Below, piece after piece: positions 221-60,416 of a stretch of 64,000 nucleotides of DNA. Position 1 is the stretch's first letter. Every line of letters starts with the position of its first letter. Source of the DNA: Tragulus kanchil (lineage: Eukaryota; Chordata; Mammalia; Artiodactyla; Tragulidae); contig JAIOJX010000027.1 of NCBI GenBank assembly GCA_022376925.1, positions 19,237,471 to 19,301,470 on the forward strand. The letters run 5' to 3'. The translations under genes and the position numbers were made by a program. The notes under the pieces were generated by a model that made no database searches, was not told where the DNA came from, and worked only from the letters and a program-made list of their open reading frames with translations.

Positions 221-1156
221 TAAGGAAGGGAGAGTGGAGAGGGGAAGGGAAGAAGGCTAGGTGTCATTCAACAATGGCCGCTGTCATCTCCGCACGCTGC
301 TCACTGAACCCTGTTAGTGCCTCCACCCTGAAGACCTGAACGCCGACTCTCGCGTCTGTGTCACTCCCAGGCCTGGCACTATCGTGGACGCCCGGGACAG
401 CCGTCAACCCCTGGGCCCCTCCAGGGCCTGACCTCGTGACCTCCACTGACCTTCCACTCCGCGGTACCCTCCGCTGGACCACCAACCGCTGTTCCCCACC
501 ACCGCCCAGACTTCAAACTCCTGCCGCCTCTCCAGGTTGGAAACTGTAAATCCAGGCACTGCAGTGACATCCATTAAGCCCCCATCTACGGCAGGTGACG
601 AGAGAAGATTTAAACTGTGAAGGGAACTAACCGGCATCCAAAACAGAGAAAGACTTGGGGCTGGATGGATTCACGGACTCAATATGGTCTCGTCAAACCA
701 GTTTTCTTCCAAATCCATTCCCTGCCTTCCGCGGAGGGTATCTTCAAGCTTGAAATTATCTGCTGTTCTAGGCTTAACTCTGTGCCACGCTGGAAGAAGC
801 AAAAAGCAAGTGTTTTCCCAGAAACAACCTTTTTCACTCTCACGGATGCAAACCAGACTCCATGGAGTAGAATCATGGCTCATAATGGAGGACTAGATGC
901 TGATGAGCAACGGCTAAGACACATCTGCACTCCTAGACCCAGCAGAGTCAGCTCTGCTCATCACACACAGGCTGCATGAAGGAAGCATGAACACCAACAT
1001 AAAAGCCATGTTACTTAAAAAGAGTGTGGAACACATGCAGGGCAGGGAACAATAGTGTCATGCCTTGTTTTCTGAACCAATCGTTCATTCTTCTGCTTTT
1101 TCATCAATTAACTTACTAGCTTTTTCTTCGTCAGGGCCCCTAGTCTTAAGCAGCCC

Positions 1157-1345
1157 AGGATGGTAGCCACGAGCCACATGCAGCTATTCTGGCTAAATTA
1201 AAAATAAACAGAATTTATAAGTCATTTGCTCAGTCTCACTGGCCACATTTTCAAGTGCTCAGTGGCCCTGTGTGGCTCACGGCCACCATGCAGAATGGCA
1301 CAGATCCACATTTTCATCATTCTAGAAGGTTTCGCTGGACACCAT
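1157..1345. mobile_element. Ancient hAT/MER3-like non-autonomous DNA transposon, copy 1
   Basis: The stretch has paired AGCCACATG and TGGCCACATTT-type blocks around an A/T-rich core. It then reads through GGCTCACGGCCACCATGCAG to a GAAGGTTTCGCTGGA end. This follows the layout of short hAT-Charlie elements of the MER3 kind (terminal core TCCAATAGAA). The family call is from memory and tentative. Confidence 0.45.
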
Positions 1346-2252
1346 GTCTCCAGCGCCCTCTGAAAAAGTTAAGGAAGGGAGAGTGGAGGGGGGGAAGAAG
1401 GCTGGCATTCAACACCTCACTGAAGACCTACTGAGCGCCGGCTCTCGCGTCTGCGTCCCTCCCAGGCCTGGCACTATCGTGGACGCCCGGGACAGCCGTC
1501 AACCCCTGGGCCCCTCCAGGGCCTGACCTCGTGACCTCCACTGACCTTCCACTCCGCGGTACCCTCCGCTGGACCACCAACCGCTGTTCCCCACCACCGC
1601 CCAGACTTCAAACTCCTGCCGCCTCTCCAGGTTGGAAACTGTAAATCCAGGCACTGCAGTGACATCCATTAAGCCCCCATCTACGGCAGGTGACGAGAGA
1701 AGATTTAAACTGTGAAGGGAACTAACCGGCATCCAAAACAGAGAAAGACTTGGGGCTGGATGGATTCACGGACTCAATATGGTCTCGTCAAACCAGTTTT
1801 CTTCCAAATCCATTCCCTGCCTTCCGCGGAGGGTATCTTCAAGCTTGAAATTATCTGCTGTTCTAGGCTTAACTCTGTGCCACGCTGGAAGAAGCAAAAA
1901 GCAAGTGTTTTCCCAGAAACAACCTTTTTCACTCTCACGGATGCAAACCAGACTCCATGGAGTAGAATCATGGCTCATAATGGAGGACTAGATGCTGATG
2001 AGCAACGGCTAAGACACATCTGCACTCCTAGACCCAGCAGAGTCAGCTCTGCTCATCACACACAGGCTGCATGAAGGAAGCATGAACACCAACATAAAAG
2101 CCATGTTACTTAAAAAGAGTGTGGAACACATGCAGGGCAGGGAACAATAGTGTCATGCCTTGTTTTCTGAACCAATCGTTCATTCTTCTGCTTTTTCATC
2201 AATTAACTTACTAGCTTTTTTCTTCGTCAGGGCCCCTAGTCTTAAGCAGCCC

Positions 2253-2440
2253 AGGATGGTAGCCACGAGCCACATGCAGCTATTCTGGCTAAATTAAAAA
2301 TAAACAGAATTTATAAGTCATTTGCTCAGTCTCACTGGCCACATTTTCAAGTGCTCAGTGGCCCTGTGTGGCTCACGGCCACCATGCAGAATGGCACAGA
2401 TCCACATTTTCATCATTCTAGAAGGTTTCGCTGGACAACA
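2253..2440. mobile_element. MER3-like element, copy 2
   Basis: Near-identical to the element at 1157; it lies in the overlap of duplications 1 and 2, so it is a copy by duplication and not a separate insertion. Confidence 0.45.
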
Positions 2441-2962
2441 TGGCTCCAGCTCCCTCTGTGCTCATTTCTTCTCATCATTAGCATCTCTCCACCCCTACTC
2501 TCACTTGAGACCCTTCTGACCAGCATCTCCAACGTACTTCCTCCATTTTTCTTTCTGGCCAACCATGATGGAAGCCCCGCTTCTTGATGAACCCACCTGT
2601 CCACAGTCCTCATGTATACACAAGAGCTGCCAAGCCCGGCTGGAGTCAGTGACACTCCCGTCCAGAGTGGACGCCTCACAGATTCCACCTCTAGTCTCTG
2701 CGAGGGCCTCAGGGCTGCCCAGCAGGCTGGCTTTCTCACCTTTACTGTCTATCCTCTTTCATTGTGGCCTTTTATCAACCTTTTCTACTTTCCTCAAACA
2801 TGTTCAATGATTCTAAGAAGGTGACATTACTTTCTCCCAAGGAAGAAATCCAGTATGCCTTATCAACAAATAAACTGCAACTATACCACTTATTTTCTCC
2901 TGTTATCCTATAATATCAGCTCTGTGTTCCAAATTCTTCCTCTCTTGGCTCAGTCATCATTG

Positions 2963-3155
2963 TTGTTGTTTAGTCACTAGGTCCTATTCGACTCTTTGTG
3001 ACCCCATGGACTATAGCCCACCAGACTCCTCTGTCCATGATAATCTACAGGCAAGAATATTGGTGTTGGTTGCCATTCCCTTCTCCAGGGGATCTTCCTG
3101 ACCAAAGGATTGAACCTGCATCTCCTGCACTGCAGGCCCATTGTTTATGACACAG
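2963..3155 (-). mobile_element. Bov-tA SINE, degraded copy
   Basis: Read on this strand it begins TTTAGTCACTAGGTCC and continues through GACCCCATGGACTATAGCCC and the CTCCTCTGTCCATG block, the reverse complement of the tRNA-Glu-derived ruminant SINE. Compared with the copy at 4079 it is altered between 3036 and 3115. That lies in the tail of a first duplication copy, where the assembly looks unreliable. Confidence 0.85.
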
Positions 3156-3369
3156 ACTTTCAGAGCGCCACTTGGGTGCTTCTCCTTCCCTCAGCCCTCC
3201 TGTGTTTGAAGCCAAGTTCACTTCTCAATCCATTCTCTCACCCTGTGCTTTGATTCTCCTGAAATCTACAAGTCTTATTTCAGTTCAGGTCTTCTCTAGC
3301 CTTCGGACCTGGGTATACAACGTATAAGCTTTTTTCTTCATCCCAGGGCCCCTAGTCTTAAGCAGCCCA

Positions 3370-3556
3370 GGATGGTAGCCACGAGCCACATGCAGCTATT
3401 CTGGCTAAATTAAAAATAAACAGAATTTATAAGTCATTTGCTCAGTCTCACTGGCCACATTTTCAAGTGCTCAGTGGCCCTGTGTGGCTCACGGCCACCA
3501 TGCAGAATGGCACAGATCCACATTTTCATCATTCTAGAAGGTTTCGCTGGACAACA
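3370..3556. mobile_element. MER3-like element, copy 3
   Basis: Third near-identical occurrence of the element at 1157, carried by the second copy of duplication 2. Confidence 0.45.
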
Positions 3557-4078
3557 TGGCTCCAGCTCCCTCTGTGCTCATTTCTTCTCATCATTAGCAT
3601 CTCTCCACCCCTACTCTCACTTGAGACCCTTCTGACCAGCATCTCCAACGTACTTCCTCCATTTTTCTTTCTGGCCAACCATGATGGAAGCCCCGCTTCT
3701 TGATGAACCCACCTGTCCACAGTCCTCATGTATACACAAGAGCTGCCAAGCCCGGCTGGAGTCAGTGACACTCCCGTCCAGAGTGGACGCCTCACAGATT
3801 CCACCTCTAGTCTCTGCGAGGGCCTCAGGGCTGCCCAGCAGGCTGGCTTTCTCACCTTTACTGTCTATCCTCTTTCCTTGTGGCCTTTTATCAACCTTTT
3901 CTACTTTCCTCAAACATGTTCAATGATTCTAAGAAGGTGACATTACTTTCTCCCAAGGAAGAAATCCAGTATGCCTTATCAACAAATAAACTGCAACTAT
4001 ACCACTTATTTTCTCCTGTTATCCTATAATATCAGCTCTGTGTTCCAAATTCTTCCTCTCTTGGCTCAGTCATCATTG

Positions 4079-4271
4079 TTGTTGTTTAGTCACTAGGTCC
4101 TATTCGACTCTTTGTGACCCCATGGACTATAGCCCACCAGACTCCTCTGTCCATGGGATTGCTCCAGGCAAGAACACTGGAGTGGGTTGCCATTCCCTTC
4201 TCCAGGGGATCTTCCCGACCCAGGGATCAAACCTGCATCTCCTGCACTGCAGGCCCATTGTTTATGACACA
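4079..4271 (-). mobile_element. Bov-tA SINE, best-preserved copy of this locus
   Basis: It carries the diagnostic blocks GACCCCATGGACTATAGCCC, CTCCTCTGTCCATGGGATT, CAAGAACACTGGAGTGGG and CCCAGGGATCAAACC (tRNA B-box region, reverse strand). The same insertion occurs at 2963 and, more degraded, at 5205. Confidence 0.88.
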
Positions 4272-4959
4272 GACTTTCAGAGCGCCACTTGGGTGCTTCT
4301 CCTTCCCTCAGCCCTCCTGTGTTTGAAGCCAAGTTCACTTCTCAATCCATTCTCTCACCCTGTGCTTTGATTCTCCCTGAAATCTACAAGTCTTTATTTC
4401 AGTTCAGGTCTTCTCCTAGCCTTCGGACCTGGGTATACAACGGCCTACAGGCCCAGTTCCACGTGGGTGTCCTCAGGCTCTCAAAGTCGAGAAGACTAAC
4501 CCAACTCTGTGTCCTCCAACATCCATGTCCCTGGTTCCCTCAATTGACACTGGCCCTCAATGACTCATGCCAGGAACATAGGCATAATCTAGACATCCTC
4601 TCACAAAACTCTGGCCATTGTGCCATCTAGAGAGCTCCCAGATGTGCCCCACTGGTCTCAGTGCCCACTGTCATCCCTCCAGCCATGCTAAGATCAGCCG
4701 TGGCCTTGACTACTGTACCAACAAGCTGGGCTTTGGGGCTTATTCCTTCTCCAATCCATTCACCAAAATGCAGCCATGATGAACATTTTAAGGACTGTCT
4801 CCTAAGTCAAACTCACTGTCTACTTTTTGGAAAAAATCTAAGGTGGAAACGGACCTTGCTCTCCATTATTTGAATACTGCTTTTTTTTTTTTTTTTTTTT
4901 TATTTTGACTTTTCCCTACATTTTACATATCCCAGGTTAAATTATGGAAAAAGTACCAC

Positions 4960-5110
4960 ATGGAAGCTAAGAGTTTGGACACTAGTCCCTGAGATGTGGG
5001 CTCAAATCCCAGTTCTATTCTCATTGCTTTCTTCTTCCAGAAAATGCTGTTAATTATAGTATTAACTCTAAAAGGTTAACTTGAACAGGTACTGAAATAA
5101 GAATATAATG
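4960..5110 (+). mobile_element. MIR SINE fragment, copy 1
   Basis: The order GAGTTTGGACACTAGTCC, then TGTGGGCTCAAATCCCAG, follows the MIR core region, which carries a tRNA-like B box. The rest is decayed. A duplicate lies at 6048. Confidence 0.5.
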
Positions 5111-5204
5111 CCTTTTTAACTTTTTTCAAATTAAAAGTCTTAACTATCACTTTTTAAAAATATCTTACTAGCAATATAGTTAAGGCTCAGATCATTTTTT
5201 TCCC

Positions 5205-5370
5205 CGACTCTTTGCAACCCTATGGACAGTAGCCCACGAGGCTCTTTTGTCCATGGGATTCTCCAGGCAAGAACACTGGAGTGGTTGCCATACCCTCCTC
5301 TAGGGGATCTTCCCCACACAGGGATCAAACCTGCATCTCCTGCACTGCAGGCCCATTGTTTATGACACAG
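5205..5370 (-). mobile_element. Bov-tA SINE at a seam, degraded
   Basis: It opens abruptly at CCCCGACTCTTTGCAACC with many differences from the copy at 4105 (for example CACGAGGCTCTTTTGTCC), then becomes identical near 5320. It is the head of a second duplication copy. Confidence 0.8.
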
Positions 5371-6047
5371 ACTTTCAGAGCGCCACTTGGGTGCTTCTCC
5401 TTCCCTCAGCCCTCCTGTGTTTGAAGCCAAGTTCACTTCTCAATCCATTCTCTCACCCTGTGCTTTGATTCTCCCTGAAATCTACAAGTCTTTATTTCAG
5501 TTCAGGTCTTCTCCTAGCCTTCGGACCTGGGTATACAACGGCCTACAGGCCCAGTTCCACGTGGGTGTCCTCAGGCTCTCAAAGTCGAGAAGACTAACCC
5601 AACTCTGTGTCCTCCAACATCCATGTCCCTGGTTCCCTCAATTGACACTGGCCCTCAATGACTCATGCCAGGAACATAGGCATAATCTAGACATCCTCTC
5701 ACAAAACTCTGGCCATTGTGCCATCTAGAGAGCTCCCAGATGTGCCCCACTGGTCTCAGTGCCCACTGTCATCCCTCCAGCCATGCTAAGATCAGCCGTG
5801 GCCTTGACTACTGTACCAACAAGCTGGGCTTTGGGGCTTATTCCTTCTCCAATCCATTCACCAAAATGCAGCCATGATGAACATTTTAAGGACTGTCTCC
5901 TAAGTCAAACTCACTGTCTACTTTTTGGAAAAAATCTAAGGTGGAAACGGACCTTGCTCTCCATTATTTGAATACTGCTTTTTTTTTTTTTTTTGTCATT
6001 TTGACTTTTCCCTACATTTTACATATCCCAGGTTAAATTATGGAAAA

Positions 6048-6200
6048 AGTACCACATGGAAGCTAAGAGTTTGGACACTAGTCCCTGAGATGTGGGCTCA
6101 AATCCCAGTTCTATTCTCATTGCTTTCTTCTTCCAGAAAATGCTGTTAATTATAGTATTAACTCTAAAAGGTTAACTTGAACAGGTACTGAAATAAGAAT
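6048..6200 (+). mobile_element. MIR SINE fragment, copy 2
   Basis: Duplicate of the fragment at 4960, carried by the second copy of duplication 3. Confidence 0.5.
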
Positions 6201-6293
6201 ATAATGCCTAAAATATAATATACATATTTATTAAACTTTTTTTTCAAGTTAAAAGTCTTTATCACTTTTTAAAAATATCTTACTAGCGATATA

Positions 6294-7505: not shown

Positions 7506-7775
7506 TCCTCTTGTTTGAAAAATTCCAAACATCACGTTTAGGAGGAATGTTTGAACTCTGAATTTTCAGTGTAATTATCTTGCTTATTGTCAATGAAGAA
7601 ATGTGATACTTGAATAAACATAAACGAGAACACTGTGGCATCACCTAACAGTTTTGTTTTTTTTTTTTTCATTTGTTTTGTAAGAAAATTTATCAAAAGA
7701 AAGATGCAAGAAATGACCTACCTCTACAATGCCCTCTGAGTGCACCACATTTCAGGTGCCCTGTGAAATAATATT

Positions 7776-7978
7776 TGGTTAGTCGCTATGTCCTGTCCAA
7801 CTCTTGCAGCCCCATGGACTGTAGCCCGCCAGGCTCCTCTGTCCATGGGATTTCCCAGGCAAGGATAATGGAGTGGGTTGCCATTTCCTTCTCTAAGGAA
7901 TCTTCCCGACCCAGGGATTGAACCCATGTCTCCTGCTTGGCAAGCAGATTCTCTACCATCAAGCGACCTGGATAGCCC
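7776..7978 (-). mobile_element. Bov-tA SINE, copy 1
   Basis: A full-length-looking reverse-strand SINE running from TTAGTCGCTATGTCCTGTCC, through CTGTAGCCCGCCAGGCTCC and CCCAGGGATTGAACCC, to AGCGACCTGGATAGCCC. Confidence 0.92.
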
Positions 7979-8897
7979 TATCTAATCAAGACAGACAGAT
8001 TTAATCCAACAGAAGCAGGGACCAACCAGAATCCAGAATTATTGACTGAAAGGCCTATTTACTTGAAAAGAGTACATTATGTTTGCAAAGGGTTGTTTTG
8101 TAGTTTGAGGGTAAAAGAGTATTCTAGACTAGTTTTTATGCCAATTGCAAGGACTTAATTGTTTTGAAGCAAGGCAAATTTGTCAAGATTTATCAAGACA
8201 CACTGAACGTCGCACAAAGCCAGGCACCAACATGTGGCTGTTCCTGGTCCCCAGCTGACCTGGCCTTTCCCCAGCCCTCAAAAGAGAAAGAAGACTGTAC
8301 TTGCAAGTGTTTTCATGTATAATATTTACATTTAGACCAGAAAGACACAAATGGGCAACTTGGCCCCAAATGTCTACAGCATGTGGGCAGATGTCAGCTC
8401 ATGGGGTCACTTGAATGGCATTTTATGGCCGAGGACACACGGTCCAGCCTGTTTCAGTCATCTGAGCAGCATGTGACTTCCATCACTCTGTGCTCTCGGG
8501 CATAAGGTGGGATGTTATGAACCTGAGCGACCGGCAGAACCACAAAAGTGGAAGCACATGTGTCGGCTCAAGAAAAGAAATCGTTTTCTTCACGATTCCA
8601 CTGTGAGTCTAAATGTACGAAACCTTTCCTTTTTCCCTCTTGTTTGAAAAATTCCAAACATCACGTTTAGGAGGAATTTTGTAATTTTCAGTGTAATTAT
8701 CTTGCTTATTGTCAATGAAGAAATGTGATACTTGAATAAACATAAACGAGAACACTGTGGCATCACCTAACAGTTTTGTTTTTTTTTTTTTCATTTGTTT
8801 TGTAAGAAAATTTATCAAAAGAAAGATGCAAGAAATGACCTACCTCTACAATGCCCTCTGAGTGCACCACATTTCAGGTGCCCTGTGAAATAATATT

Positions 8898-9100
8898 TGG
8901 TTAGTCGCTATGTCCTGTCCAACTCTTGCAGCCCCATGGACTGTAGCCCGCCAGGCTCCTCTGTCCATGGGATTTCCCAGGCAAGGATAATGGAGTGGGT
9001 TGCCATTTCCTTCTCTAAGGAATCTTCCCGACCCAGGGATTGAACCCATGTCTCCTGCTTGGCAAGCAGATTCTCTACCATCAAGCGACCTGGATAGCCC
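8898..9100 (-). mobile_element. Bov-tA SINE, copy 2 (by duplication)
   Basis: Sequence-identical to the SINE at 7776 with identical flanks, so it is not an independent insertion. Confidence 0.92.
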
Positions 9101-9762
9101 TATCTAATCAAGACAGACAGATTTAATCCAACAGAAGCAGGGACCAACCAGAATCCAGAATTATTGACTGAAAGGCCTATTTACTTGAAAAGAGTACATT
9201 ATGTTTGCAAAGGGTTGTTTTGTAGTTTGAGGGTAAAAGAGTATTCTAGACTAGTTTTTATGCCAATTGCAAGGACTTAATTGTTTTGAAGCAAGGCAAA
9301 TTTGTCAAGATTTATCAAGACACACTGAACGTCGCACAAAGCCAGGCACCAACATGTGGCTGTTCCTGGTCCCCAGCTGACCTGGCCTTTCCCCAGCCCT
9401 CAAAAGAGAAAGAAGACTGTACTTGCAAGTGTTTTCATGTATAATATTTACATTTAGACCAGAAAGACACAAATGGGCAACTTGGCCCCAAATGTCTACA
9501 GCATGTGGGCAGATGTCAGCTCATGGGGTCACTTGAATGGCATTTTATGGCCGAGGACACACGGTCCAGCCTGTTTCAGTCATCTGAGCAGCATGTGACT
9601 TCCATCACTCTGTGCTCTCGGGCATAAGGTGGGATGTTATGAACCTGAGCGACCGGCAGAACCACAAAAGTGGAAGCACATGTGTCGGCTCAAGAAAAGA
9701 AATCGTTTTCTTCACGATTCCACTGTGAGTCTAAATGTACGATTTCTGCCAACCTTTCCTTT

Positions 9763-11662: not shown

Positions 11663-11711
11663 CAAAAAGACACAACTTAATGACTACACCAAGAACCATA
11701 TATTTATATAC

Positions 11712-11931
11712 GCACTAAGTCACTTCAGTCATGTCTGACTTTTTGCAACTCCATGGACTGCAGCCCACCAGGCTCCTCTGTCCATGGGATTCCCCAGGCA
11801 AGAAGACTGGAGCACGTTCTCATGCCCTCCTCCAGGGGATCTTCCCAGCCCAGGGATCCAGCCTGGGTCTCTCATGTCTCCTGCTTTGGCAGGCAAATTC
11901 TTTACCACTAGCCCACCTGGGAAGTCCCCCC
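11712..11931 (-). mobile_element. Bov-tA SINE, copy 1
   Basis: Reverse-strand element running from GCACTAAGTCACTTCAGTC, through GACTGCAGCCCACCAGGCTC, to GCCCACCTGGGAAGTCC. It includes an insert near the B box (CCAGCCTGGGTCTCTCATG). Confidence 0.92.
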
Positions 11932-12798
11932 TCCCCATGCCCCCACCACCACCACCCACACAATCAGGAGCACATCATTTAAATGTGTTGTTGCTACAAG
12001 GGAAATCACTATCTATCTCTATACACAGAGAAAGAAAGAGAGGTCTATTTTAAGGGATTAAACCATACACTTGTGGAGGCAGGTGAATCCTAAATCTGCA
12101 GTGTTAGCTGGAAGGCTGGAGACCCAGGGAAGAGGCAATTTTGCAATTTAAGTCCAAAGGTCATCTGCTGGCAGAAGTCTTTTTGCTCAGAGGAGGTCCG
12201 TCTTTTGTTCTATTCAGTCCTCAACTGAATAGATCAGGCCCACCCACTTCATGGAGGGCAATCTGCTCTACTCCAAGTCCACTGATTCAAATGCTCATTT
12301 CATCTAAAAACACCCTCATAGAAACATCCAGAATAACCCTTGGCCAGATACCTGGGCCCTGTGGTCCAGCCAAGTTGACACGTAAAATTAATTAAGCATC
12401 ATACCAGGTATGGTTTGACTGAATTTCTTACTCCCATGAAGGGCAGAGAAGTCGCCGAGAAAAACCACCACAGCTAAAGGGAGACTCCACAGCCTGGAAG
12501 TTAATGTTCAGCAGTGACTAGAGTGGACGGTTAACTACAAGCTAGTTAAAAGGACTTTCTTCTCAACAGACGCCTTCATGGATTGCGGACAACTCATGAA
12601 GGCCTCCGTCATCTTGGAAATACGTAAGCCCATTAGGAATGTGTTACAATTCAAGTGCAAACCTGGATATTTTAGAACTCGACTGAGATCAAGTCTGTCC
12701 CACCTAAAATGTGCATGGCTTAATGAAGAATTACTGATCTAGTCACTCAAAAAAAGACACAACTTAATGACTACACCAAGAACCATATATTTATATAC

Positions 12799-13015
12799 GC
12801 ACTAAGTCACTTCAGTCATGTCTGACTTTTTGCAACTCCATGGACTGCAGCCCACCAGGCTCCTCTGTCCATGGGATTCCCCAGGCAAGAAGACTGGAGC
12901 ACGTTCTCATGCCCTCCTCCAGGGGATCTTCCCAGCCCAGGGATCCAGCCTGGGTCTCTCATGTCTCCTGCTTTGGCAGGCAAATTCTTTACCACTAGCC
13001 CACCTGGGAAGTCCC
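12799..13015 (-). mobile_element. Bov-tA SINE, copy 2 (by duplication)
   Basis: Same insertion as at 11712, with two bases fewer in the C-rich tail. Confidence 0.92.
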
Positions 13016-13833
13016 TCCCCATGCCCCCCACCACCACCACCCACACAATCAGGAGCACATCATTTAAATGTGTTGTTGCTACAAGGGAAATCACTATCTA
13101 TCTCTATACACAGAGAAAGAAAGAGAGGTCTATTTTAAGGGATTAAACCATACACTTGTGGAGGCAGGTGAATCCTAAATCTGCAGTGTTAGCTGGAAGG
13201 CTGGAGACCCAGGGAAGAGGCAATTTTGCAATTTAAGTCCAAAGGTCATCTGCTGGCAGAAGTCTTTTTGCTCAGAGGAGGTCCGTCTTTTGTTCTATTC
13301 AGTCCCTCAACTGAATAGATCAGGCCCACCCACTTCATGGAGGGCAATCTGCTCTACTCCAAGTCCACTGATTCAAATGCTCATTTCATCTAAAAACACC
13401 CTCATAGAAACATCCAGAATAACCCTTGGCCAGATACCTGGGCCCTGTGGTCCAGCCAAGTTGACACGTAAAATTAATTAAGCATCATACCAGGTATGGT
13501 TTGACTGAATTTCTTACTCCCATGAAGGGCAGAGAAGTCGCCGAGAAAAACCACCACAGCTAAAGGGAGACTCCACAGCCTGGAAGTTAATGTTCAGCAG
13601 TGACTAGAGTGGACGGTTAACTACAAGCTAGTTAAAAGGACTTTCTTCTCAACAGACGCCTTCATGGATTGCGGACAACTCATGAAGGCCTCCGTCATCT
13701 TGGAAATACGTAAGCCCATTAGGAATGTGTTACAATTCAAGTGCAAACCTGGATATTTTAGAACTCGACTGAGATCAAGTCTGTCCCACCTAAAATGTGC
13801 ATGGCTTAATGAAGAATTACTGATCTAGTCACT

Positions 13834-14609
13834 AAATCAGATTTTAAAAGAAACATGATCCAAGCTAAACTGGAATCACAGGAAGAGGGTGCCTACTCCT
13901 GCCAATCTTGATGGCTTCATCATGGTCTGATCTGGTGAAGCGTCCTATCTGCATAACGCCTGACTTCTCTCCCCACTCCCAGGCCGGGTTGCCGTCTACA
14001 GATCTACCACCTGTATTTGAACTGTGATATCAGCCATCCCACAGCAGTGCCGATTTAATCATAATGAATGCGCATTCCTCACAGAATATCTTATTACACC
14101 CTGGGTGTTGTTTTTGTGATTTGACCACAAGCTAAATTGATTGGAGATTCATTAAGACCTCCGAAGCAGCTGGCCAGGGACCCCAAAGGAAGGCGTGAAG
14201 ATTAACAGCCTCGACAGGAGGCTGTGGGAGGATGTGCTTAATTAATAGTGACAAGGGATTACGGGCTCCGTCGCCTTTCTAGATGTCACTTGAGTCACAT
14301 GTACTGACACTCGTTTATTTTTGTTTGCATTATTGAGTAAACTCTAGAAACTCACTAGATTTACAGTCTTTCCTTCCTTAATTCAGCAGGACTGAGGGAC
14401 CCCAGCTCTCCTGTAAATCACACCTCTGGTATCTCCAAGAGTGAACCCCTCCTGGAGTTGTGGCTGAGGGTCGGCCTTGTAGATTATGTGTGTTCTCTAC
14501 CCGTTCCTTTGTGCTGATGGCGTGTTCTTCCCACTTTGCTCCTGTCCCCTCATTAATATCGTATCAATGTCTTACCTCTGACACCTAGAGGTCCTAAGGG
14601 TGACATTAA
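13834..14609. other. Unique block with candidate regulatory motifs
   Basis: No recognised repeat. AT-rich homeodomain-type sites (TTAATTAAT near 14238) and a forkhead-like TTTGTTTGC near 14330 sit in otherwise non-repetitive, mid-GC sequence. This looks like conserved non-coding DNA, but conservation cannot be tested here. Confidence 0.35.
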
Positions 14610-20665: not shown

Positions 20666-21057
20666 GTGTGCAGAGAACCAGCATGGCAGCGATGCCAGGC
20701 CCAGGCCAGCAGAGCAAGAGGCATAGGGGGCAGAGCCCTTCGGGCCCTCCGTGTTTGTCCCACGAGGATGGGGGCAAAAGTTCACTCGCAGTACCACAAG
20801 AATGTACGGCCACCCCGCCACCACAGTTCCAACCGAAAGCCTCTGAGTGCGTGCTCTCCAACCACACTGAATGGAAACACAGCCATTCGGAACAGCCCGA
20901 GCCAGCCAGGGCCTGCCATCAGCAGAAAGTGGGCAAGTAGGCAGCTGAGTTGGATTCCTTTTATTTGGCAAATTTGCAATATAAAAGGAAGGGCAAGTTG
21001 CCAGAGTATGTTTCTCTTATCCAATTTGCTTAAACCAAATACACTTTGAGGCCAATG

Positions 21058-21161: not shown

Positions 21162-21261
21162 GGGGGCAAACAGGTACTGCAATCTGGAGATCCACCAGAG
21201 TAAGCTCACGAGTCTGGTTCCATTAGCTACATCGTCCACCTCTGTTTACAAGTAGGCAGAG

Positions 21262-22246: not shown

Positions 22247-22346
22247 GGGGGCAAACAGGTACTGCAATCTGGAGATCCACCAGAGTAAGCTCACGAGTCT
22301 GGTTCCATTAGCTACATCGTCCACCTCTGTTTACAAGTAGGCAGAG

Positions 22347-42381: not shown

Positions 42382-42799
42382 GATAAAGCTCTATTCCTTG
42401 GCTCTCGCTTAGAACGGAGGGACTCAAAAAATGTCTAAAGCTATCTTCCTTTTTCAGAACTGTCCATGACTATCTACGGATACCATCATGCCCAGTGTTT
42501 CAAGTCGCAGATGCCGGGCAGGCACTGTGTCCACACAGTTCGATATGTTGGAGCGTGAAACAGCAGTGGAATGGAGTCGCCGCTTCAGGCCGGGTCAGGT
42601 AAGAACACTGCCCTAATGACAAACAGCTACGAGAAGGCATCTCGGCCATGATTTAAGGAGCCCAAGTGCTCTAATAAGGAAAGACGCTTGAATTCAGCAC
42701 CAGATCTGCACTTAACGAGCTTCAAACTCCTGTGGCCAACTTATTTTCTGTCTTTTCAGTTTGGCTACACTTTTGTACTTTACAGTGAAAGTACCAGGG

Positions 42800-43012
42800 C
42801 TCCCCGGTGGTGCAGTGGTAGAGACCCGCCCTGCAGACACAGAAGACCCAAGAGACGCAGGTTCAACCCCTGGGTCAGGAAGATCCCCTGGAGGAGGAGA
42901 TGGCAACCCACTCCAGTACTCTTGCCTGGAAAAATCCCATGGACAAAGGGGCCTGGTAGGCTACAGTCCATGGGGTGGCAGAAGAGTTGGACACCACTGA
43001 GGTGACTTAGCC
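42800..43012 (+). mobile_element. Bov-tA SINE, forward, copy 1
   Basis: The head is GGCTCCCCGGTGGTGCAG, the B box GGTTCAACCCCTGGGTC, the body GGCAACCCACTCCAGTACTC and the end GGCAGAAGAGTTGGACACC. The head has an unusual ACACAGAAGACCCAAGAG stretch. Confidence 0.93.
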
Positions 43013-43946
43013 TGCCCACAAGCCAGCATGCTTGCTTTTGTGCTTTAAAGGCAGAGGTGAAGAATCGCACCACATCTACCCAGGGAGTGAGTTAAAGCTG
43101 AACATCCTTGTAAGCAGATACCCGAGGAGGCACCCCTAACCTCCTCACTGACACGGTAATGGGCATTGTTAAATTCAAAGACAGTTACGTCAGCAATTTG
43201 TGGTCTCTCAGGGGGTTTCCAGGCCTATAAAGCACACAAATTATACCCAAATATTGGCCTGAAAAATTAGTAAGCTATAGGGTTTGTGTTATTTCAGTCA
43301 AGCTTTACTGGGGTAAAAGAAACCCAGGGACCCTAAAACTCCGTTAGTTTCTTCACGGCTTTATTATTTTCTTTTTTGGTGGGCCGATTCTGAGATGTTA
43401 ACGCTGTTCTCGTCATTCCATTTTTCTTCCTTATTACATGATTTTTATTATTTGTGTCTCGCTGGCTTTTCTTGGACACCCAAGGATAAGTTGGGCAGCT
43501 GTCAATGAACATTATATTTCTTGCCCCTTGATAAAGCTCTATTCCTTGGCTCTCGCTTAGAACGGAGGGACTCAAAAAATGTCTAAAGCTATCTTCCTTT
43601 TTCAGAACTGTCCATGACTATCTACGGATACCATCATGCCCAGTGTTTCAAGTCGCAGATGCCGGGCAGGCACTGTGTCCACACAGTTCGATATGTTGGA
43701 GCGTGAAACAGCAGTGGAATGGAGTCGCCGCTTCAGGCCGGGTCAGGTAAGAACACTGCCCTAATGACAAACAGCTACGAGAAGGCATCTCGGCCATGAT
43801 TTAAGGAGCCCAAGTGCTCTAATAAGGAAAGACGCTTGAATTCAGCACCAGATCTGCACTTAACGAGCTTCAAACTCCTGTGGCCAACTTATTTTCTGTC
43901 TTTTCAGTTTGGCTACACTTTTGTACTTTACAGTGAAAGTACCAGG

Positions 43947-44161
43947 GCTCCCCCGGTGGTGCGAGTGGTAGAGACCCGCCCTGCAGACACAGAAGACCCA
44001 AGAGACGCAGGTTCAACCCCTGGGTCAGGAAGATCCCCTGGAGGAGGAGATGGCAACCCACTCCAGTACTCTTGCCTGGAAAAATCCCATGGACAAAGGG
44101 GCCTGGTAGGCTACAGTCCATGGGGTGGCAGAAGAGTTGGACACCACTGAGGTGACTTAGC
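43947..44161 (+). mobile_element. Bov-tA SINE, forward, copy 2 (by duplication)
   Basis: Same insertion as at 42800, differing by single-base insertions in the head (CTCCCCCGG and GTGCGAGTGG). Confidence 0.93.
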
Positions 44162-44281
44162 CTGCCCACAAGCCAGCATGCTTGCTTTTGTGCTTTAAAA
44201 GGCAGAGGTGAAGAATCGCACCACATCTACCCAGGGAGTGAGTTAAAGCTGAACATCCTTGTAAGCAGATACCCGAGGAGG

Positions 44282-44479
44282 CTTCCCATTACAGCTCCTC
44301 CATCTCCATCAATAACCAGCATTCTGACGTTTATAGCAATAAAGATACAAGGAAGTACCCGCGATAAAAGCCAGGACAGTGGTTCTTTGGGGCCAGACCT
44401 CTAAGCCTCACTGCCTTGACTGGAGCACTGAGAGAAGAATACTGCTAGCCCACAGTGGTGTTTGGAAAACAAAGCATAA

Positions 44480-45530: not shown

Positions 45531-45547
45531 CTAGAATTTAGAAGTCC

Positions 45548-45768
45548 TTGTTGCTGCTGCTGTTTTAGTTGCTCAGTTGTGTCTGACTCCTGTCCCACCC
45601 CATGGGCTGTAGACCGCCAGGCTCCTCTGTCCATGGGACTTTCCAGGCAAGCACACTGGAGGGGGCTGCCATGCCCTCCTCAGGGGACCCTCCTCACGCA
45701 GGGATGGAACCTGAGGTTCCTGCATTGGCAGGTGAGGTCTTGACCACTGAGTCAGCCGGGAAGCGTTG
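45548..45768 (-). mobile_element. Bov-tA SINE with a TGC run, copy 1
   Basis: It carries TTGCTGCTGCTGTTTTAG, TTGCTCAGTTGTGTCTGAC and CAGGCAAGCACACTGGAGG, with the head at GAGTCAGCCGGGAAGC. Confidence 0.92.
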
Positions 45769-46468
45769 ACTCTGGTCCAGTTTCTGCCTCTTGTGATATT
45801 TTACAGGTCACTTCAAAATAATGGACAAAATTCTAAGAGGTTTGATTTCAATGCTGAACACTATTATGATTTATAACCTCCTCACATGAAAGCCTCCTAC
45901 AGCTTTGCCGTAGGTCTTAAGGGGTAGATTCTTTGATGATATGAGCAGATTCTTTACAGGAGGAGCCACCAGGTAAGGGGGGTATCATCAAAATAAACCA
46001 TGGTGAGGATGTAGGAAACACCCAAAAGAGGGTTAGAGGGGATGGAGAAAATCTTGCTGGATTTGCACAAAGGACCATCTAAGAAATGCCCACCAGTCCC
46101 TCAAAGGCGGACATTCCCACGGTGTTTTCCTAATGCCTGGACACTGCCATTCTCCTCACTAAGTCGTGAGGGATGTTTTGCAAAAGTTATCTTTGGGTCA
46201 CATTCAATCACAAAATTAAGATCTTTTCAACTCTCCACACCTGATAAAACTACTTAACACGTACTCAGCTCTTGTTATGGCCTTGAGTTTAGGATCTTTT
46301 GATGTTCCTAGACCAAATTTCCTCCTCCAGGATCTTAGTTTTGTTTGTTTATTTTTTTGTTTTTGTTTTTTAAACTCCTTACTTACCCTCAGTGAATTTC
46401 TTTTTCACATGCTAATTTTTCTATTGGGTCATTTTCAAATTTCTCATGGAAGGGTAGTTCTGGGTTTT

Positions 46469-46490
46469 ATATATATATATATATATATAA
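46469..46490. repeat. (TA)11, first of three copies
   Basis: The same TA run recurs as (TA)12 at 47553-47576 and (TA)12 at 48655-48678, carried by duplications 13 and 14. Confidence 0.95.
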
Positions 46491-46631
46491 AATAAAGTCT
46501 ATGGTATCAATTTATTGCTACTTATAATTTCTACTTATACTGACTTTGTTACCTTGTCCTGAAATTATGTTTTATATTTTAAATTAAAAGTTTAAAATAT
46601 GAAATTATGTTTTACTAGAATTTAGAAGTCC

Positions 46632-46852
46632 TTGTTGCTGCTGCTGTTTTAGTTGCTCAGTTGTGTCTGACTCCTGTCCCACCCCATGGGCTGTAGACCG
46701 CCAGGCTCCTCTGTCCATGGGACTTTCCAGGCAAGCACACTGGAGGGGGCTGCCATGCCCTCCTCAGGGGACCCTCCTCACGCAGGGATGGAACCTGAGG
46801 TTCCTGCATTGGCAGGTGAGGTCTTGACCACTGAGTCAGCCGGGAAGCGTTG
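46632..46852 (-). mobile_element. Bov-tA SINE with a TGC run, copy 2 (by duplication)
   Basis: Identical to the SINE at 45548, including flanks. Confidence 0.92.
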
Positions 46853-47340
46853 ACTCTGGTCCAGTTTCTGCCTCTTGTGATATTTTACAGGTCACTTCAA
46901 AATAATGGACAAAATTCTAAGAGGTTTGATTTCAATGCTGAACACTATTATGATTTATAACCTCCTCACATGAAAGCCTCCTACAGCTTTGCCGTAGGTC
47001 TTAAGGGGTAGATTCTTTGATGATATGAGCAGATTCTTTACAGGAGGAGCCACCAGGTAAGGGGGGTATCATCAAAATAAACCATGGTGAGGATGTAGGA
47101 AACACCCAAAAGAGGGTTAGAGGGGATGGAGAAAATCTTGCTGGATTTGCACAAAGGACCATCTAAGAAATGCCCACCAGTCCCTCAAAGGCGGACATTC
47201 CCACGGTGTTTTCCTAATGCCTGGACACTGCCATTCTCCTCACTAAGTCGTGAGGGATGTTTTGCAAAAGTTATCTTTGGGTCACATTCAATCACAAAAT
47301 TAAGATCTTTTCAACTCTCCACACCTGATAAAACTACTTA

Positions 47341-49535
47341 ACACGTACTCAGCTCTTGTTATGGCCTTGAGTTTAGGATCTTTTGATGTTCCTAGACCAA
47401 ATTTCCTCCTCCAGGATCTTAGTTTTGTTTGTTTATTTTTTTGTTTTTGTTTTTTAAACTCCTTACTTACCCTCAGTGAATTTCTTTTTCACATGCTAAT
47501 TTTTCTATTGGGTCATTTTCAAATTTCTCATGGAAGGGTAGTTCTGGGTTTTTATATATATATATATATATATATAAAATAAAGTCTATGGTATCAATTT
47601 ATTGCTACTTATAATTTCTACTTATACTGACTTTAAGTTACCTTGTCCTGAAATTATGTTTTATATTTTAAATTAAAAAGTTTAAAATATGCAAAAGCAT
47701 TTCTAAACCTTTTAAAAGTAGAGTTTATTTCTTTTCTTAAGTAGTCCTAACCTGAGATCGTAGATATTTTCTTCTGATTTTTTAAAAGTGTTTTTATATA
47801 TGCATGTGTTTAATCTATCTAGAAGCAACTTTTGTACTGTCTTCAGTATAAATTATTTTCCCAGTGCAATCAACCTAGCACCACTTACTAAATAGTTTAG
47901 TTTCCCCCATCCAGCCTTTAATGTGATACACTGAGTTTCCCAACACACATTTGACCTTTTTTGGATCCACTATTCTGCTGCACTGGTCTATATGTTTTTA
48001 CTCATTTGTAAATATAAAAAAGCTTTAACAACTATAGTGTTAATAAAATATATTGCTGTCTATTGTGTGCTTTAATTTTGTTATTCTTTTTCAAAATTGT
48101 ATTTGTCAATTTTAGTCCTTTGGGGGTTTCTTACTATAAATTCTAGGAGCTGCTTATCAAGTTTCATAATAAATTTGTTGGAATTTTAATTGGAATTACA
48201 GTTAATTTATTAGCCAATTTGGGGAAAAGCCAAACTATATTACATTGTCCTTTCCCCATTCATGAATATGATGCATTTTGTCATTCAGTTAGCAGTTATT
48301 TTGCTACATTTATTCCTGGATGAATTAAGCATTTATTTTCTCACTGCTTATTGCAGGTATATACTAATGCTAATGAGTTCCTTTTGTTGAGCACTCATCT
48401 GGCAACCTACCTGAATTTTTATAAATTCCACTAAAAACTCTCACACGTAAAACTCTTGTCTCATGGCCTTGAGTTTAGGATCTTTTGATGTTCCTAGACC
48501 AAATTTCCTCCTCCAGGATCTTAGTTTTGTTTGTTTATTTTTTTGTTTTTGTTTTTTAAACTCCTTACTTACCCTCAGTGAATTTCTTTTTCACATGCTA
48601 ATTTTTCTATTGGGTCATTTTCAAATTTCTCATGGAAGGGTAGTTCTGGGTTTTTATATATATATATATATATATATAAAATAAAGTCTATGGTATCAAT
48701 TTATTGCTACTTATAATTTCTACTTATACTGACTTTAAGTTACCTTGTCCTGAAATTATGTTTTATATTTTAAATTAAAAAGTTTAAAATATGCAAAAGC
48801 ATTTCTAAACCTTTTAAAAGTAGAGTTTATTTCTTTTCTTAAGTAGTCCTAACCTGAGATCGTAGATATTTTCTTCTGATTTTTTAAAAGTGTTTTTATA
48901 TATGCATGTGTTTAATCTATCTAGAAGCAACTTTTGTACTGTCTTCAGTATAAATTATTTTCCCAGTGCAATCAACCTAGCACCACTTACTAAATAGTTT
49001 AGTTTCCCCCATCCAGCCTTTAATGTGATACACTGAGTTTCCCAACACACATTTGACCTTTTTTGGATCCACTATTCTGCTGCACTGGTCTATATGTTTT
49101 TACTCATTTGTAAATATAAAAAAGCTTTAACAACTATAGTGTTAATAAAATATATTGCTGTCTATTGTGTGCTTTAATTTTGTTATTCTTTTTCAAAATT
49201 GTATTTGTCAATTTTAGTCCTTTGGGGGTTTCTTACTATAAATTCTAGGAGCTGCTTATCAAGTTTCATAATAAATTTGTTGGAATTTTAATTGGAATTA
49301 CAGTTAATTTATTAGCCAATTTGGGGAAAAGCCAAACTATATTACATTGTCCTTTCCCCATTCATGAATATGATGCATTTTGTCATTCAGTTAGCAGTTA
49401 TTTTGCTACATTTATTCCTGGATGAATTAAGCATTTATTTTCTCACTGCTTATTGCAGGTATATACTAATGCTAATGAGTTCCTTTTGTTGAGCACTCAT
49501 CTGGCAACCTACCTGAATTTTTATAAATTCCACTA
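47341..49535. repeat. Direct tandem duplication 14
   Basis: First copy 47341-48433, second copy 48443-49535; the offset is 1102. The first copy ends TTCCACTA and then AAAACTCTC. The second copy's head reads CACGTAAAACTCTTGTCTC against CACGTACTCAGCTCTTGTT. 47341-47691 also ends duplication 13, giving three copies. Confidence 0.96.
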
Positions 49536-54852: not shown

Positions 54853-55994
54853 CCTCAGCGCCTGGAGCCCCTGCAAAACCATCCCTTGAGCGGCTCCTCG
54901 TTAAAAGCAAAGTACCAAGAAGAGCAAAGACGGTGTCTTCTCCACCGCTTTCTCTCCGTGCTCTTGCCTATTCGCACCTACCTGAGAAGCCCTCTGACAA
55001 ATTAAGTCACTGCTCTGGGCTTTCTGACGACACAAGATCAGAGTGAGGTACTCCGGACTCACGGCTCTGTGTGAGCAGACACAGCGCGGACACTGAAGGC
55101 CTACACGGAGAACTTTTGGTCCAAGCAGCCAAACGGAGTTATTTGTTACAGACGCTGACTTGGAATATTACAATAGGGAAGGAAAAAAAAAAAAAAAAAA
55201 AAAACAGTGAAGGATTTTATGATATTTATGCGTAGAGGCTGAACCAGCAGGGCGACGTTTATGAGGCTTTTCCAAGCAAAGTCCACCAATCACGGGGAGA
55301 TGGCTAGCCCCAGCCGAACATTTTGTACTTCTCATCATTTATGGGATCCCTGTCGGCCCCGGAGTGCTGCCTGAGCGCTGGGAATATGAGACATAAATCG
55401 TTGCTGGTCCTTTTAAATGAGCCATCGGCGATCTCAAGAGAGAGTGGAACTTGGTCAGACACACGCTGGCACCTGAGGGATGATGGACTGGGCAGGGATA
55501 CAGTAGCCCACGGCCGCCCTCAGAGGACGGATAACCTTCTCCCAAGCCTGATTCTTTTTCACAGGGGTACACACATTTCTTTCCTAATTGCTAAGTCTAG
55601 CTTTATTCCGGATGGAACCAGATTTTCTGTGAAATGGAAGCTTTGGGGTTCTGTCTTCCTCCTCCTCCTTCTCCCTGTCCATTACTCCATGTCTCAGGAG
55701 CTCATGCTCATAAAATTCATATTATATCATCTTACATATGTCCTTTCCTAGTTTTTCATGTATTATTTTCCCCACAAAAGAGCATATTTCCTGAATATCT
55801 CACTCATGTTTATAATCTACTCATCTATTATTTTCCAAAATCCCTGCCAATAATAAGTGCATCATAAATAATCATTGACTATATGTGTGAATAAAATACC
55901 TTATTAAAATAGGTCACTGACATTCCTTAAAAAAATAATCAGGAGACCCTGAACTTTCTATTTCCCCCTGGAGAGAATGCTCAGTCTTTCACAT
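54853..55994. other. Unique DNA with an A-run
   Basis: A homopolymer of about 21 A lies at 55184-55204. A 142-codon forward frame (55323-55751) shows no recognisable similarity. No repeat family is named. Confidence 0.4.
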
Positions 55995-56029
55995 CCTTCC
56001 TTTAACTCCTTCCAGTGTCTCTGTCCATG

Positions 56030-56358
56030 TTATGGACTGAATGCTTTGGTCCCCTCAAAATCCACGTCAAAAACTTAACCTCTGATGTGATAATCCTGGG
56101 AGGTAGGGCCTTTGGGAGGTAATCAGGTCCTGAGGGTGGAACTCTCATGAATAAGACTAGCATCCCAGAGAGCTCCCTTGTTCTTTCTTCCACACGAGGA
56201 CACCATGAGGAGACAGGCATCTATGGACCAGGAAAAAGGTCCTCACCAGCAGTGTGATCCTGGACTCTCAGCCTTCAGATCTATTAGCAATAAAGTTCTA
56301 TTGTTGAAGACACTTCATCTATGACATGGTGTCAGTGGCCCAAACGGACTAAAATATC
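56030..56358 (+). mobile_element. MaLR-type solo LTR, copy 1
   Basis: It starts TGTTATGGACTGAATGC and contains GGCCTTTGGGAGGTAATC, CACCATGAGGAGACAGGC and a polyadenylation-type AGCAATAAAG. It ends near CAAACGGACTAAAATA. This is an ancient non-coding LTR with no internal viral genes beside it. Confidence 0.7.
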
Positions 56359-56810
56359 CCATAATCCCACAGCAGACCTCGTGTTCCTGCCAGCCCAGCC
56401 TCTATCCTACTCCCCAGAGATGAGAGAAGGTGCCCCCTAGAACCTGGAAAGCTCTTTTGGCTTTTCCATTTGTGAACTTGAATTTACCCTTCAAGTTACA
56501 GGGAAGATGTTACTTCATCTATATATCCTTATTTGACTCCCCACAGGAGCCCTCATGTGTACTTAAGTGACACTTTGTAACTACCTTCACGCTGTTGACA
56601 ATCACACTGTAAGTATTACACTGTGGTTATTTGTTTTGCTAGCATTTCATTTCTCTCTTTCTTCTCTCTCTCTCACATGCACAAATAGCATGCACATTTT
56701 CCTGATCATGGATAGTAAGCAACTAACATAATACCTGAAAAATAATCTGTTATTAAGTATATATACATATAAAATATGTATTTGTGGAATGAAAGACTAA
56801 AATAATAATG

Positions 56811-56832
56811 AATGGATGGATGGATGGATGGA
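56811..56832. repeat. (ATGG)n tetranucleotide run, copy 1
   Basis: About five GGAT/ATGG units. The duplicate lies at 57866-57888. Confidence 0.9.
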
Positions 56833-56869
56833 ATAGGTTAAGAATTTAGACACTTAACAAAAGATCAGC

Positions 56870-57043
56870 CCGAGTTTGAATCCTGTTTGAACCAGTTCTA
56901 GCTGTTGATCTTAGGCAAGTTCCTTGCCTTTCTCAACCTTCAGTGTTTCACATCTACAGTGGAATCATAGAAATACTTTCATAACAGAGTTGTGATATAA
57001 GTTACATAAATTAACTCATGGAAATGGTTGGCAATCTCTGGAA
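56870..57043 (+). mobile_element. MIR SINE, copy 1
   Basis: It carries GAGTTTGAATCCTGTTTG, GATCTTAGGCAAGTTCC, TTGCCTTTCTCAACCTTCAG and ATCTACAGTGGAATCATAG, in MIR order. Confidence 0.7.
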
Positions 57044-57085
57044 ATTTCCACCTTCCTTTAACTCCTTCCAGTGTCTCTGTCCATG

Positions 57086-57414
57086 TTATGGACTGAATGC
57101 TTTGGTCCCCTCAAAATCCACGTCAAAAACTTAACCTCTGATGTGATAATCCTGGGAGGTAGGGCCTTTGGGAGGTAATCAGGTCCTGAGGGTGGAACTC
57201 TCATGAATAAGACTAGCATCCCAGAGAGCTCCCTTGTTCTTTCTTCCACACGAGGACACCATGAGGAGACAGGCATCTATGGACCAGGAAAAAGGTCCTC
57301 ACCAGCAGTGTGATCCTGGACTCTCAGCCTTCAGATCTATTAGCAATAAAGTTCTATTGTTGAAGACACTTCATCTATGACATGGTGTCAGTGGCCCAAA
57401 CGGACTAAAATATC
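57086..57414 (+). mobile_element. MaLR-type solo LTR, copy 2 (by duplication)
   Basis: Same element as at 56030 with the same flanks. Confidence 0.7.
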
Positions 57415-57925
57415 CCATAATCCCACAGCAGACCTCGTGTTCCTGCCAGCCCAGCCTCTATCCTACTCCCCAGAGATGAGAGAAGGTGCCCCCTAGAACC
57501 TGGAAAGCTCTTTTGGCTTTTCCATTTGTGAACTTGAATTTACCCTTCAAGTTACAGGGAAGATGTTACTTCATCTATATATCCTTATTTGACTCCCCAC
57601 AGGAGCCCTCATGTGTACTTAAGTGACACTTTGTAACTACCTTCACGCTGTTGACAATCACACTGTAAGTATTACACTGTGGTTATTTGTTTTGCTAGCA
57701 TTTCATTTCTCTCTTTCTTCTCTCTCTCTCACATGCACAAATAGCATGCACATTTTCCTGATCATGGATAGTAAGCAACTAACATAATACCTGAAAAATA
57801 ATCTGTTATTAAGTATATATACATATAAAATATGTATTTGTGGAATGAAAGACTAAAATAATAATGAATGGATGGATGGATGGATGGAATAGGTTAAGAA
57901 TTTAGACACTTAACAAAAGATCAGC

Positions 57926-58099
57926 CCGAGTTTGAATCCTGTTTGAACCAGTTCTAGCTGTTGATCTTAGGCAAGTTCCTTGCCTTTCTCAACCTTCAGT
58001 GTTTCACATCTACAGTGGAATCATAGAAATACTTTCATAACAGAGTTGTGATATAAGTTACATAAATTAACTCATGGAAATGGTTGGCAATCTCTGGAA
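57926..58099 (+). mobile_element. MIR SINE, copy 2 (by duplication)
   Basis: Same element as at 56870. Its right 99 bases appear a third time at 59149-59248 through duplication 16. Confidence 0.7.
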
Positions 58100-58120
58100 G
58101 ATGAACAAGAAATGAAAAAG

Positions 58121-58429
58121 AAAAGAGGATGAAGAGGCTTCCCTGGTGGTCCAGTGGGTAAGGACACTGCCTTGCAGTGCAAGGGGTGCCGGTTTGATCC
58201 CTGGCCTGGGAAGATCCCACATGCCGCAGAGCGGCTGGACCGATGTGTCCAACCACCAAGCCAGCGCTCTGGAGCGCATGCACCCAGAGCCGGTGCTCTG
58301 CAACGAGAGAGGCCACCGCGATGAGAGGTCCACATAGGCCAAAGAACAAAGATGGATGAAAATAAATAAATGAAATACCAATAGAAATGACCTAAAAAAA
58401 ATTACAAAAAAAAAAAAAGAGGATGAAGA
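58121..58429 (+). mobile_element. CHR-type SINE with 15-base target-site duplication, copy 1
   Basis: AAAAGAGGATGAAGA occurs at 58121-58135 and 58415-58429. The element has GCTTCCCTGGTGGTCCAG, GGTTTGATCCCTGGCCTG, GAGCCGGTGCTCTGCAAC and an A-rich tail. A GA-rich stretch follows to about 58510. Confidence 0.95.
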
Positions 58430-59269
58430 AGGAAGTAGAAGAGGAGGAGAAGATGGAAGAAAAGATGGGAAAAAAGAAAAAGGAGGAAAGCAGAGAAAGG
58501 AGACAAAGCAACAATGATAAACTGACCTTCACAAAAGTGAAGAGAGAAGCAAGACCAAGGTAGATAAGATTCAACTAATCAAATGATAACTCTTCCCAGG
58601 AACCCTTTCTGAACTGAGTGGGGAGGAAAAAGAAACAGTCCCAGTAAAGGAGGTTGCCATACCATCCATTCATATGTCTTTTCAACTTACACAGATGTTT
58701 AAAAAAAAAAGAATGGACGAGGACTTGAAAGAAAAATCAGTTATGACATTAAGTAATAAATGTATGAGAGGTTTTGGTCTCTTTTCAAAATATTTTAACA
58801 ATAAATAAAAACACCATTTAAAGATACGAGTCTTTGGTGCATTCCATCAGCAGGACACCCACAGAGAGGGCAGAGCACCAGAAGGACGTTCCTAAGACAA
58901 ACATCTCCTGAGTGTGGGAGGGGCTTGAGGAGGCTTGCTCTAGGAGGAGTTTTTTATTGTCACAGTATGTTGTCACCACCATTATGGCAAGTTTTATAGA
59001 GGAAGAAAAGAGTGGGCTTTCCAGAGAGTTCAATTTCATTAATCAAACAATTTCTGAATCAACTGTCAGACCTACATCAAAGCCACTGAAAATAAATGAG
59101 GTCTCATGCACCAATTTTAACCTTTATAAAGGGATTTGGTGGCCAGAATGTTTCACATCTACAGTGGAATCATAGAAATACTTTCATAACAGAGTTGTGA
59201 TATAAGTTACATAAATTAACTCATGGAAATGGTTGGCAATCTCTGGAAGATGAACAAGAAATGAAAAAG

Positions 59270-59578
59270 AAAAGAGGATGAAGAGGCTTCCCTGGTGGTC
59301 CAGTGGGTAAGGACACTGCCTTGCAGTGCAAGGGGTGCCGGTTTGATCCCTGGCCTGGGAAGATCCCACATGCCGCAGAGCGGCTGGACCGATGTGTCCA
59401 ACCACCAAGCCAGCGCTCTGGAGCGCATGCACCCAGAGCCGGTGCTCTGCAACGAGAGAGGCCACCGCGATGAGAGGTCCACATAGGCCAAAGAACAAAG
59501 ATGGATGAAAATAAATAAATGAAATACCAATAGAAATGACCTAAAAAAAATTACAAAAAAAAAAAAAGAGGATGAAGA
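59270..59578 (+). mobile_element. CHR-type SINE, copy 2 (by duplication)
   Basis: The element and both target-site copies are the same as at 58121, so it arose by duplication and not by a new insertion. Confidence 0.95.
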
Positions 59579-60416
59579 AGGAAGTAGAAGAGGAGGAGAA
59601 GATGGAAGAAAAGATGGGAAAAAAGAAAAAGGAGGAAAGCAGAGAAAGGAGACAAAGCAACAATGATAAACTGACCTTCACAAAAGTGAAGAGAGAAGCA
59701 AGACCAAGGTAGATAAGATTCAACTAATCAAATGATAACTCTTCCCAGGAACCCTTTCTGAACTGAGTGGGGAGGAAAAAGAAACAGTCCCAGTAAAGGA
59801 GGTTGCCATACCATCCATTCATATGTCTTTTCAACTTACACAGATGTTTAAAAAAAAAAAAAAAGAATGGACGAGGACTTGAAAGAAAAATCAGTTATGA
59901 CATTAAGTAATAAATGTATGAGAGGTTTTGGTCTCTTTTCAAAATATTTTAACAATAAATAAAAACACCATTTAAAGATACGAGTCTTTGGTGCATTCCA
60001 TCAGCAGGACACCCACAGAGAGGGCAGAGCACCAGAAGGACGTTCCTAAGACAAACATCTCCTGAGTGTGGGAGGGGCTTGAGGAGGCTTGCTCTAGGAG
60101 GAGTTTTTTATTGTCACAGTATGTTGTCACCACCATTATGGCAAGTTTTATAGAGGAAGAAAAGAGTGGGCTTTCCAGAGAGTTCAATTTCATTAATCAA
60201 ACAATTTCTGAATCAACTGTCAGACCTACATCAAAGCCACTGAAAATAAATGAGGTCTCATGCACCAATTTTAACCTGGTTTATAAAGAGGATTTGGGTG
60301 GCGCAGAGTGAGGTTCAAAGCTCATAGCTCAAGGAAAAATGGCAAGAGGAGAGAGGATCCTCCTTCAAACTTAACAAACAATCATTATCTCCAAATAAGT
60401 GAGACTTCGTGGAATG

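Follow-up and report, generated by a model that had tools for sequence, protein, structure and literature searches.

The window analysed here, a 64,000-base stretch of the Tragulus kanchil genome assembly, raises the question of whether different neighbouring sequences were doubled at one size in the chromosome or during assembly. When the window was compared with itself by BLAST, we found 16 same-strand pairs of head-to-tail copies, each copy 1005-1159 bp long and 97.2-100% identical to its partner. These are the 16 pairs, at the same seams, that had been listed in the original prediction. At all of them the copies were adjacent, with no N gaps between.

Pair 1: 328..2458, + strand; copies 328-1362 and 1420-2458, seam after 1362; 98.9% identical
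Pair 2: 2213..4442, + strand; copies 2213-3322 and 3327-4442, seam after 3322; 98.1% identical; overlaps pair 1, so that 2213-2458 occurs three times (three-way comparison)
Pair 3: 4105..6209, + strand; copies 4105-5113 and 5205-6209, seam after about 5197; 98.0% identical; overlaps pair 2
Pair 4: 7507..9742, + strand; copies 7507-8620 and 8636-9742; 99.4% identical
Pair 5: 11664..13836, + strand; copies 11664-12751 and 12751-13836; 99.5% identical
Pair 6: 20665..22795, + strand; copies 20665-21710 and 21773-22795; 97.2% identical
Pair 7: 25884..28011, + strand; copies 25884-26913 and 26982-28011; 99.4% identical
Pair 8: 31134..33450, + strand; copies 31134-32287 and 32298-33450; 99.4% identical
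Pair 9: 34657..36807, + strand; copies 34657-35714 and 35753-36807; 99.7% identical
Pair 10: 37959..40163, + strand; copies 37959-39061 and 39061-40163; 100% identical over 1103 bp
Pair 11: 40082..42378, + strand; copies 40082-41223 and 41245-42378; 98.5% identical; overlaps pair 10 (three-way comparison)
Pair 12: 41987..44282, + strand; copies 41987-43131 and 43134-44282; 99.7% identical; overlaps pair 11 (three-way comparison)
Pair 13: 45531..47695, + strand; copies 45531-46604 and 46615-47695; 99.4% identical
Pair 14: 47330..49535, + strand; copies 47330-48433 and 48434-49535; 99.2% identical; overlaps pair 13 (three-way comparison)
Pair 15: 55987..58099, + strand; copies 55987-57043 and 57045-58099; 99.8% identical
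Pair 16: 58000..60307, + strand; copies 58000-59147 and 59149-60307; 99.1% identical; overlaps pair 15

Different sequences share one unit length

The copy-to-copy offset, measured in the middle of each unit, ranged from 1056 to 1161 bp (mean 1109, SD 30; 16 pairs), which is exactly the range first put forward. Summing the offsets gave 17,746 bp, or 17,795 bp when they were taken from the BLAST starts, in agreement with the earlier figure of about 17.8 kb of redundant sequence, and 33,288 of the 64,000 bases lay inside some copy. Under a crude model in which lengths are log-uniform between 200 and 10,000 bp, the probability that 16 lengths fall in one such band is about 6e-25, and chance was therefore ruled out as the cause of the common length. 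The window held no inverted match longer than 150 bp with identity above 95%. The remaining same-strand self-matches longer than 150 bp comprised four rows of 248-393 bp, in each of which part of a neighbouring unit occurs for a third time, and otherwise repeats of 77-90% identity.

Neighbouring units overlapped in 6 of 15 cases, by 86-395 bp with a maximum of 395 bp, and the overlapped stretch therefore occurs three times. The view that every unit is different thus needed qualification: the fixed-size units do differ in sequence, but six of the 15 neighbours overlap as described, and an interspersed repeat of about 220 bp is common to the units near 34.9, 38 and 58.2 kb. This repeat of some 220-250 bp, which is probably a ruminant SINE, was found at 34959-35176 (again at 36054-36269), 37923-38175, 39061-39277 and 58136-58386 (again at 59285-59535), with inverted copies at 10499-10755 and 30349-30595, and was 82-90% identical between loci. 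One such repeat is interrupted at the pair 10 seam, and its second copy lacks about 35 bp at the start. Reading frames derived from repeats look ruminant, and the repeats would fit the bovid origin assumed in the original prediction. Rfam gave no match in the window at gathering thresholds, and a Pfam search of 10 of the 136 stop-to-stop open reading frames (at least 90 amino acids) returned one sub-threshold match and identified no gene.

Copies differ mainly beside the seams

The position of differences within the units was then analysed in the aligned copies of the 16 pairs. The results revealed that 303 of 3388 columns differed at less than 100 bp from the seam, compared to 66 of 11,237 at 100-450 bp. 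By distance, the differing fraction was 12.9% at 0-25 bp, 6.6% at 25-50 bp and 8.2% at 50-100 bp, and 0.2-0.8% beyond that. When events (substitutions and indels pooled) were counted by decile of the BLAST-aligned unit, 60 of the 127 fell in the first decile and 22 in the last, with 2-17 in each of the others. Divergence was thus not spread evenly over the unit; an even spread would be expected of a real tandem duplication that had diverged. Planted duplications of uniform divergence (n=32), taken through the same procedure, showed 0.65-0.87% in every distance bin, and because these controls stayed flat the rise towards the seam is not a product of the method. Planted overlapping pieces with noisy ends (n=32) reproduced the rise under noise settings that we chose ourselves.

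The seams were not all alike. The seam at 1362 alone contributed 60 of the 303 seam-proximal differences, extra bases having been forced into the alignment there, and four of the 16 seams (after 12750, 39060, 43131 and 57044) had at most three differences inside 100 bp. Interior differences between copies were few, and many were homopolymer-length changes or local clusters. In pair 6, the left copy has a low-complexity, T-rich tract containing TTTTTTTTTTTGG units (21058-21101) that exceeds its counterpart in the right copy by 18 bp, a length difference of the kind that noisy reads produce in such sequence.

The odd copy usually lies at a seam

The stretches that occur three times allowed us to ask which copy departs from the other two. 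In each of the six, the copies are the end of one piece of sequence between seams, the inside of the next piece and the start of a third. We found 91 discordant columns, in which the odd copy was the start of the right-hand piece in 57, the end of the left-hand piece in 30 and the interior copy in 3, while all three differed in 1. Copies located at a seam were hence odd in 87 of the 91 columns and the interior copy in 3 of the 91, and since the odd copies sit at seams, the errors are mainly in the ends of the pieces, as separately consensus-called pieces would show. These 91 are columns rather than events, and 26 of the 57 came from a single stretch that includes a multi-base indel and the end of an alignment. 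One of the six stretches, the 100 bp common to pairs 15 and 16, was without any difference. In another (2989-3322, 4105-4440 and 5205-5540), dense substitution clusters reached about 125 bp into the stretch; here 29 of 33 columns had an odd outer copy and 3 an odd interior copy, and in the remaining column no two copies agreed.

Extra bases at some seams resemble noisy adjoining sequence

At nine of the 16 seams, at least 10 bases lay outside both aligned copies. In four of the nine these bases were noisy versions of the adjoining sequence, 81-86% identical to it, a match equalled by none of 300 shuffles. Of 57 extra bases at the seam of pair 1 (1362), 35 matched the sequence upstream of the unit at 81%; in pair 3 (5113), 82 of 91 matched downstream sequence at 83%; in pair 6 (21710), 57 of 62 matched downstream sequence at 84%; and in pair 7 (26913), 35 of 68 matched upstream sequence at 86%. 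Identity of 81-86% is the error level of raw noisy long reads and is unexpected in duplicated chromosomal DNA. The run-on matches were displaced, by about 20-54 bases past the unit end at 1362, 5113 and 21710, with about 29 unmatched bases intervening at 26913, and indels of about that size must therefore be assumed. Matches were marginal at the seams at 8620 (equalled by 1 of 300 shuffles) and 35714 (4 of 300), and at 32287, 41223 and 46604 the extra bases matched neither flank convincingly. None of 32 simulated joints with noisy ends had 10 or more extra bases.

Untrimmed overlaps as the most probable source

Because of the pile-up of errors at seams, the three-way comparison and the noisy run-ons, we regard it as very probable that the 16 pairs are assembly overlaps left untrimmed, whatever the cause, and not biological duplications. 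The earlier proposal of untrimmed overlaps of about 1 kb is strongly supported by these three lines of evidence. As to its particular route, contig merging or gap filling that left flanks in place, the untrimmed overlap stands, but we rank a failure of edge joining in a node-based long-read assembler above gap filling.

The window would then consist of 17 or more pieces of noisy long-read sequence set end to end, each with a consensus of its own. Neighbouring pieces would share an almost constant overlap of about 1.1 kb, which has been kept twice. In wtdbg2, reads are handled in 256-bp bins, the overlap of nodes is limited, edges include both of their nodes, and the consensus step merges the node that they have in common. 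The pieces could be the edges of a wtdbg2-like graph with nodes of about 1 kb, each edge consensus carrying both end nodes. Normally, a consensus program would align the node that two successive edges have in common and merge it. A failure of this step, for which noisy piece ends may be to blame, could have put whole edges end to end. Such a graph shares with the window a fixed unit of about 1 kb common to adjacent edges, and the near-constant unit length is close to 1024 bp. The ceiling of 395 bp on the overlap of neighbouring units also speaks for it. The units average 1109 bp, 8% above that nominal node length, and the failing join is something that we infer. Within the reading as untrimmed overlaps, we consider failed joining of edges at a node of the wtdbg2 type somewhat likelier than otherwise.

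Published descriptions touch on this route at several points. The assembler wtdbg2 is described as chopping reads into 1024-bp segments that serve as the vertices of the graph (PMC10989838), and contigs as being handed to consensus as overlapping read sequences (PMC12037172). Ankole cattle, a bovid, have an assembly merged from wtdbg2 and Canu (PMC8854726), and for a goat genome a wtdbg2 version was made, though the final assembly was by Flye (PMC8434745). A literature search for a tandem artefact of about 1 kb from wtdbg2 or untrimmed overlaps gave none among the titles and abstract openings of the matches listed, and nothing on it was found in the examined passages of PMC8228171.

The spacing of the units was also analysed. 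In collapsed coordinates, the 15 centre-to-centre steps were 726-854 bp (four), 1000-1041 bp (two), 2230-2367 bp (four), and 3014, 4053, 4250, 7532 and 7937 bp. In the raw piece lengths, a Rayleigh test gave no significant 256-bp period (p 0.295 and 0.155). A V-test for multiples of 256 bp, made post hoc on the centre-to-centre steps after that negative result, gave p 0.026 over the full set of 15 steps; the value was 0.007 when the 10 steps shorter than 2.5 kb were taken and 0.015 for the 6 shorter than 1.1 kb. Over all 15 steps 256 bp ranked ninth among 126 periods, with 378 first. The apparent preference for multiples of 256 bp is thus a hint only.

Weighing the alternatives

Long-read gap filling or contig merging, in which fills are inserted along with some 1 kb of both flanks left untrimmed, would leave one duplicate on either side of each fill. 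The anatomy of the seams, their noisy ends and the fact that their number is even all agree with this. False duplications can become connected through faulty gap filling, among other ways (PMC9516828), and gap filling is used for bovid assemblies (PMC8854726, PMC8434745). Against it, 6 of the 15 pieces have end units that overlap each other, by 86-395 bp. The pieces to either side of such a piece then overlap as well, which would give a negative length to the supposed gap, or to the supposed contig between two fills. Pieces with overlapping ends also come two in succession twice (1960 and 1875 bp; 2167 and 1904 bp), and gap filling predicts neither a ceiling on unit overlap nor a 256-bp spacing, for which the support is weak. 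It is one form of the untrimmed overlap, and we hold it to be a possible but less likely one; other pipeline steps, a further form, appear improbable.

Retention of both alleles of heterozygous stretches in series, the heterotype duplication that is the main source of false duplication in the assemblies studied by Ko et al. (PMC9516828), would give no fixed length. The copies differ little in their interiors, often in homopolymer length or in local clusters, and pair 10 is identical; haplotype duplication is very unlikely here. The closest category used in that study (Ko et al. 2022, PMC9516828) is homotype false duplication, which like the present pairs reflects sequencing or assembly error rather than two alleles and shows error-type differences in the duplicates. 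It is defined there by read depth and k-mers, whereas the pairs here are judged from sequence, and error-type rather than allelic differences were found indirectly, from the seam-side excess and the rarely odd interior copy. Unlike that category in general, the present duplicates have a size fixed at about 1.1 kb and adjacent copies without N gaps.

Real tandem duplication would agree with the head-to-tail arrangement, the high identity and the four clean seams. It would take sixteen independent events of one size, acting on different sequences, with differences concentrated at seams, an interior copy that is rarely odd and noisy run-ons, and planted duplications of uniform divergence were without the seam pattern; we give it hardly any credence. 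A genuine undescribed process that doubles unrelated neighbouring stretches at about 1.1 kb, and involves error-prone synthesis where the copies join, is just as implausible.

Consequences for the assembly

Collectively, these data indicate that the pairs are almost certainly an assembly artefact without biological significance. With about 28% of the window redundant (17,746 of 64,000 bases), they serve as a warning about assembly quality. The signature, fixed head-to-tail pairs of about 1.1 kb with noisy seams, is a simple target for screening. Should the assembly be like this elsewhere, exon duplications, maps of segmental duplication, copy-number calls and genome size derived from it would be wrong.
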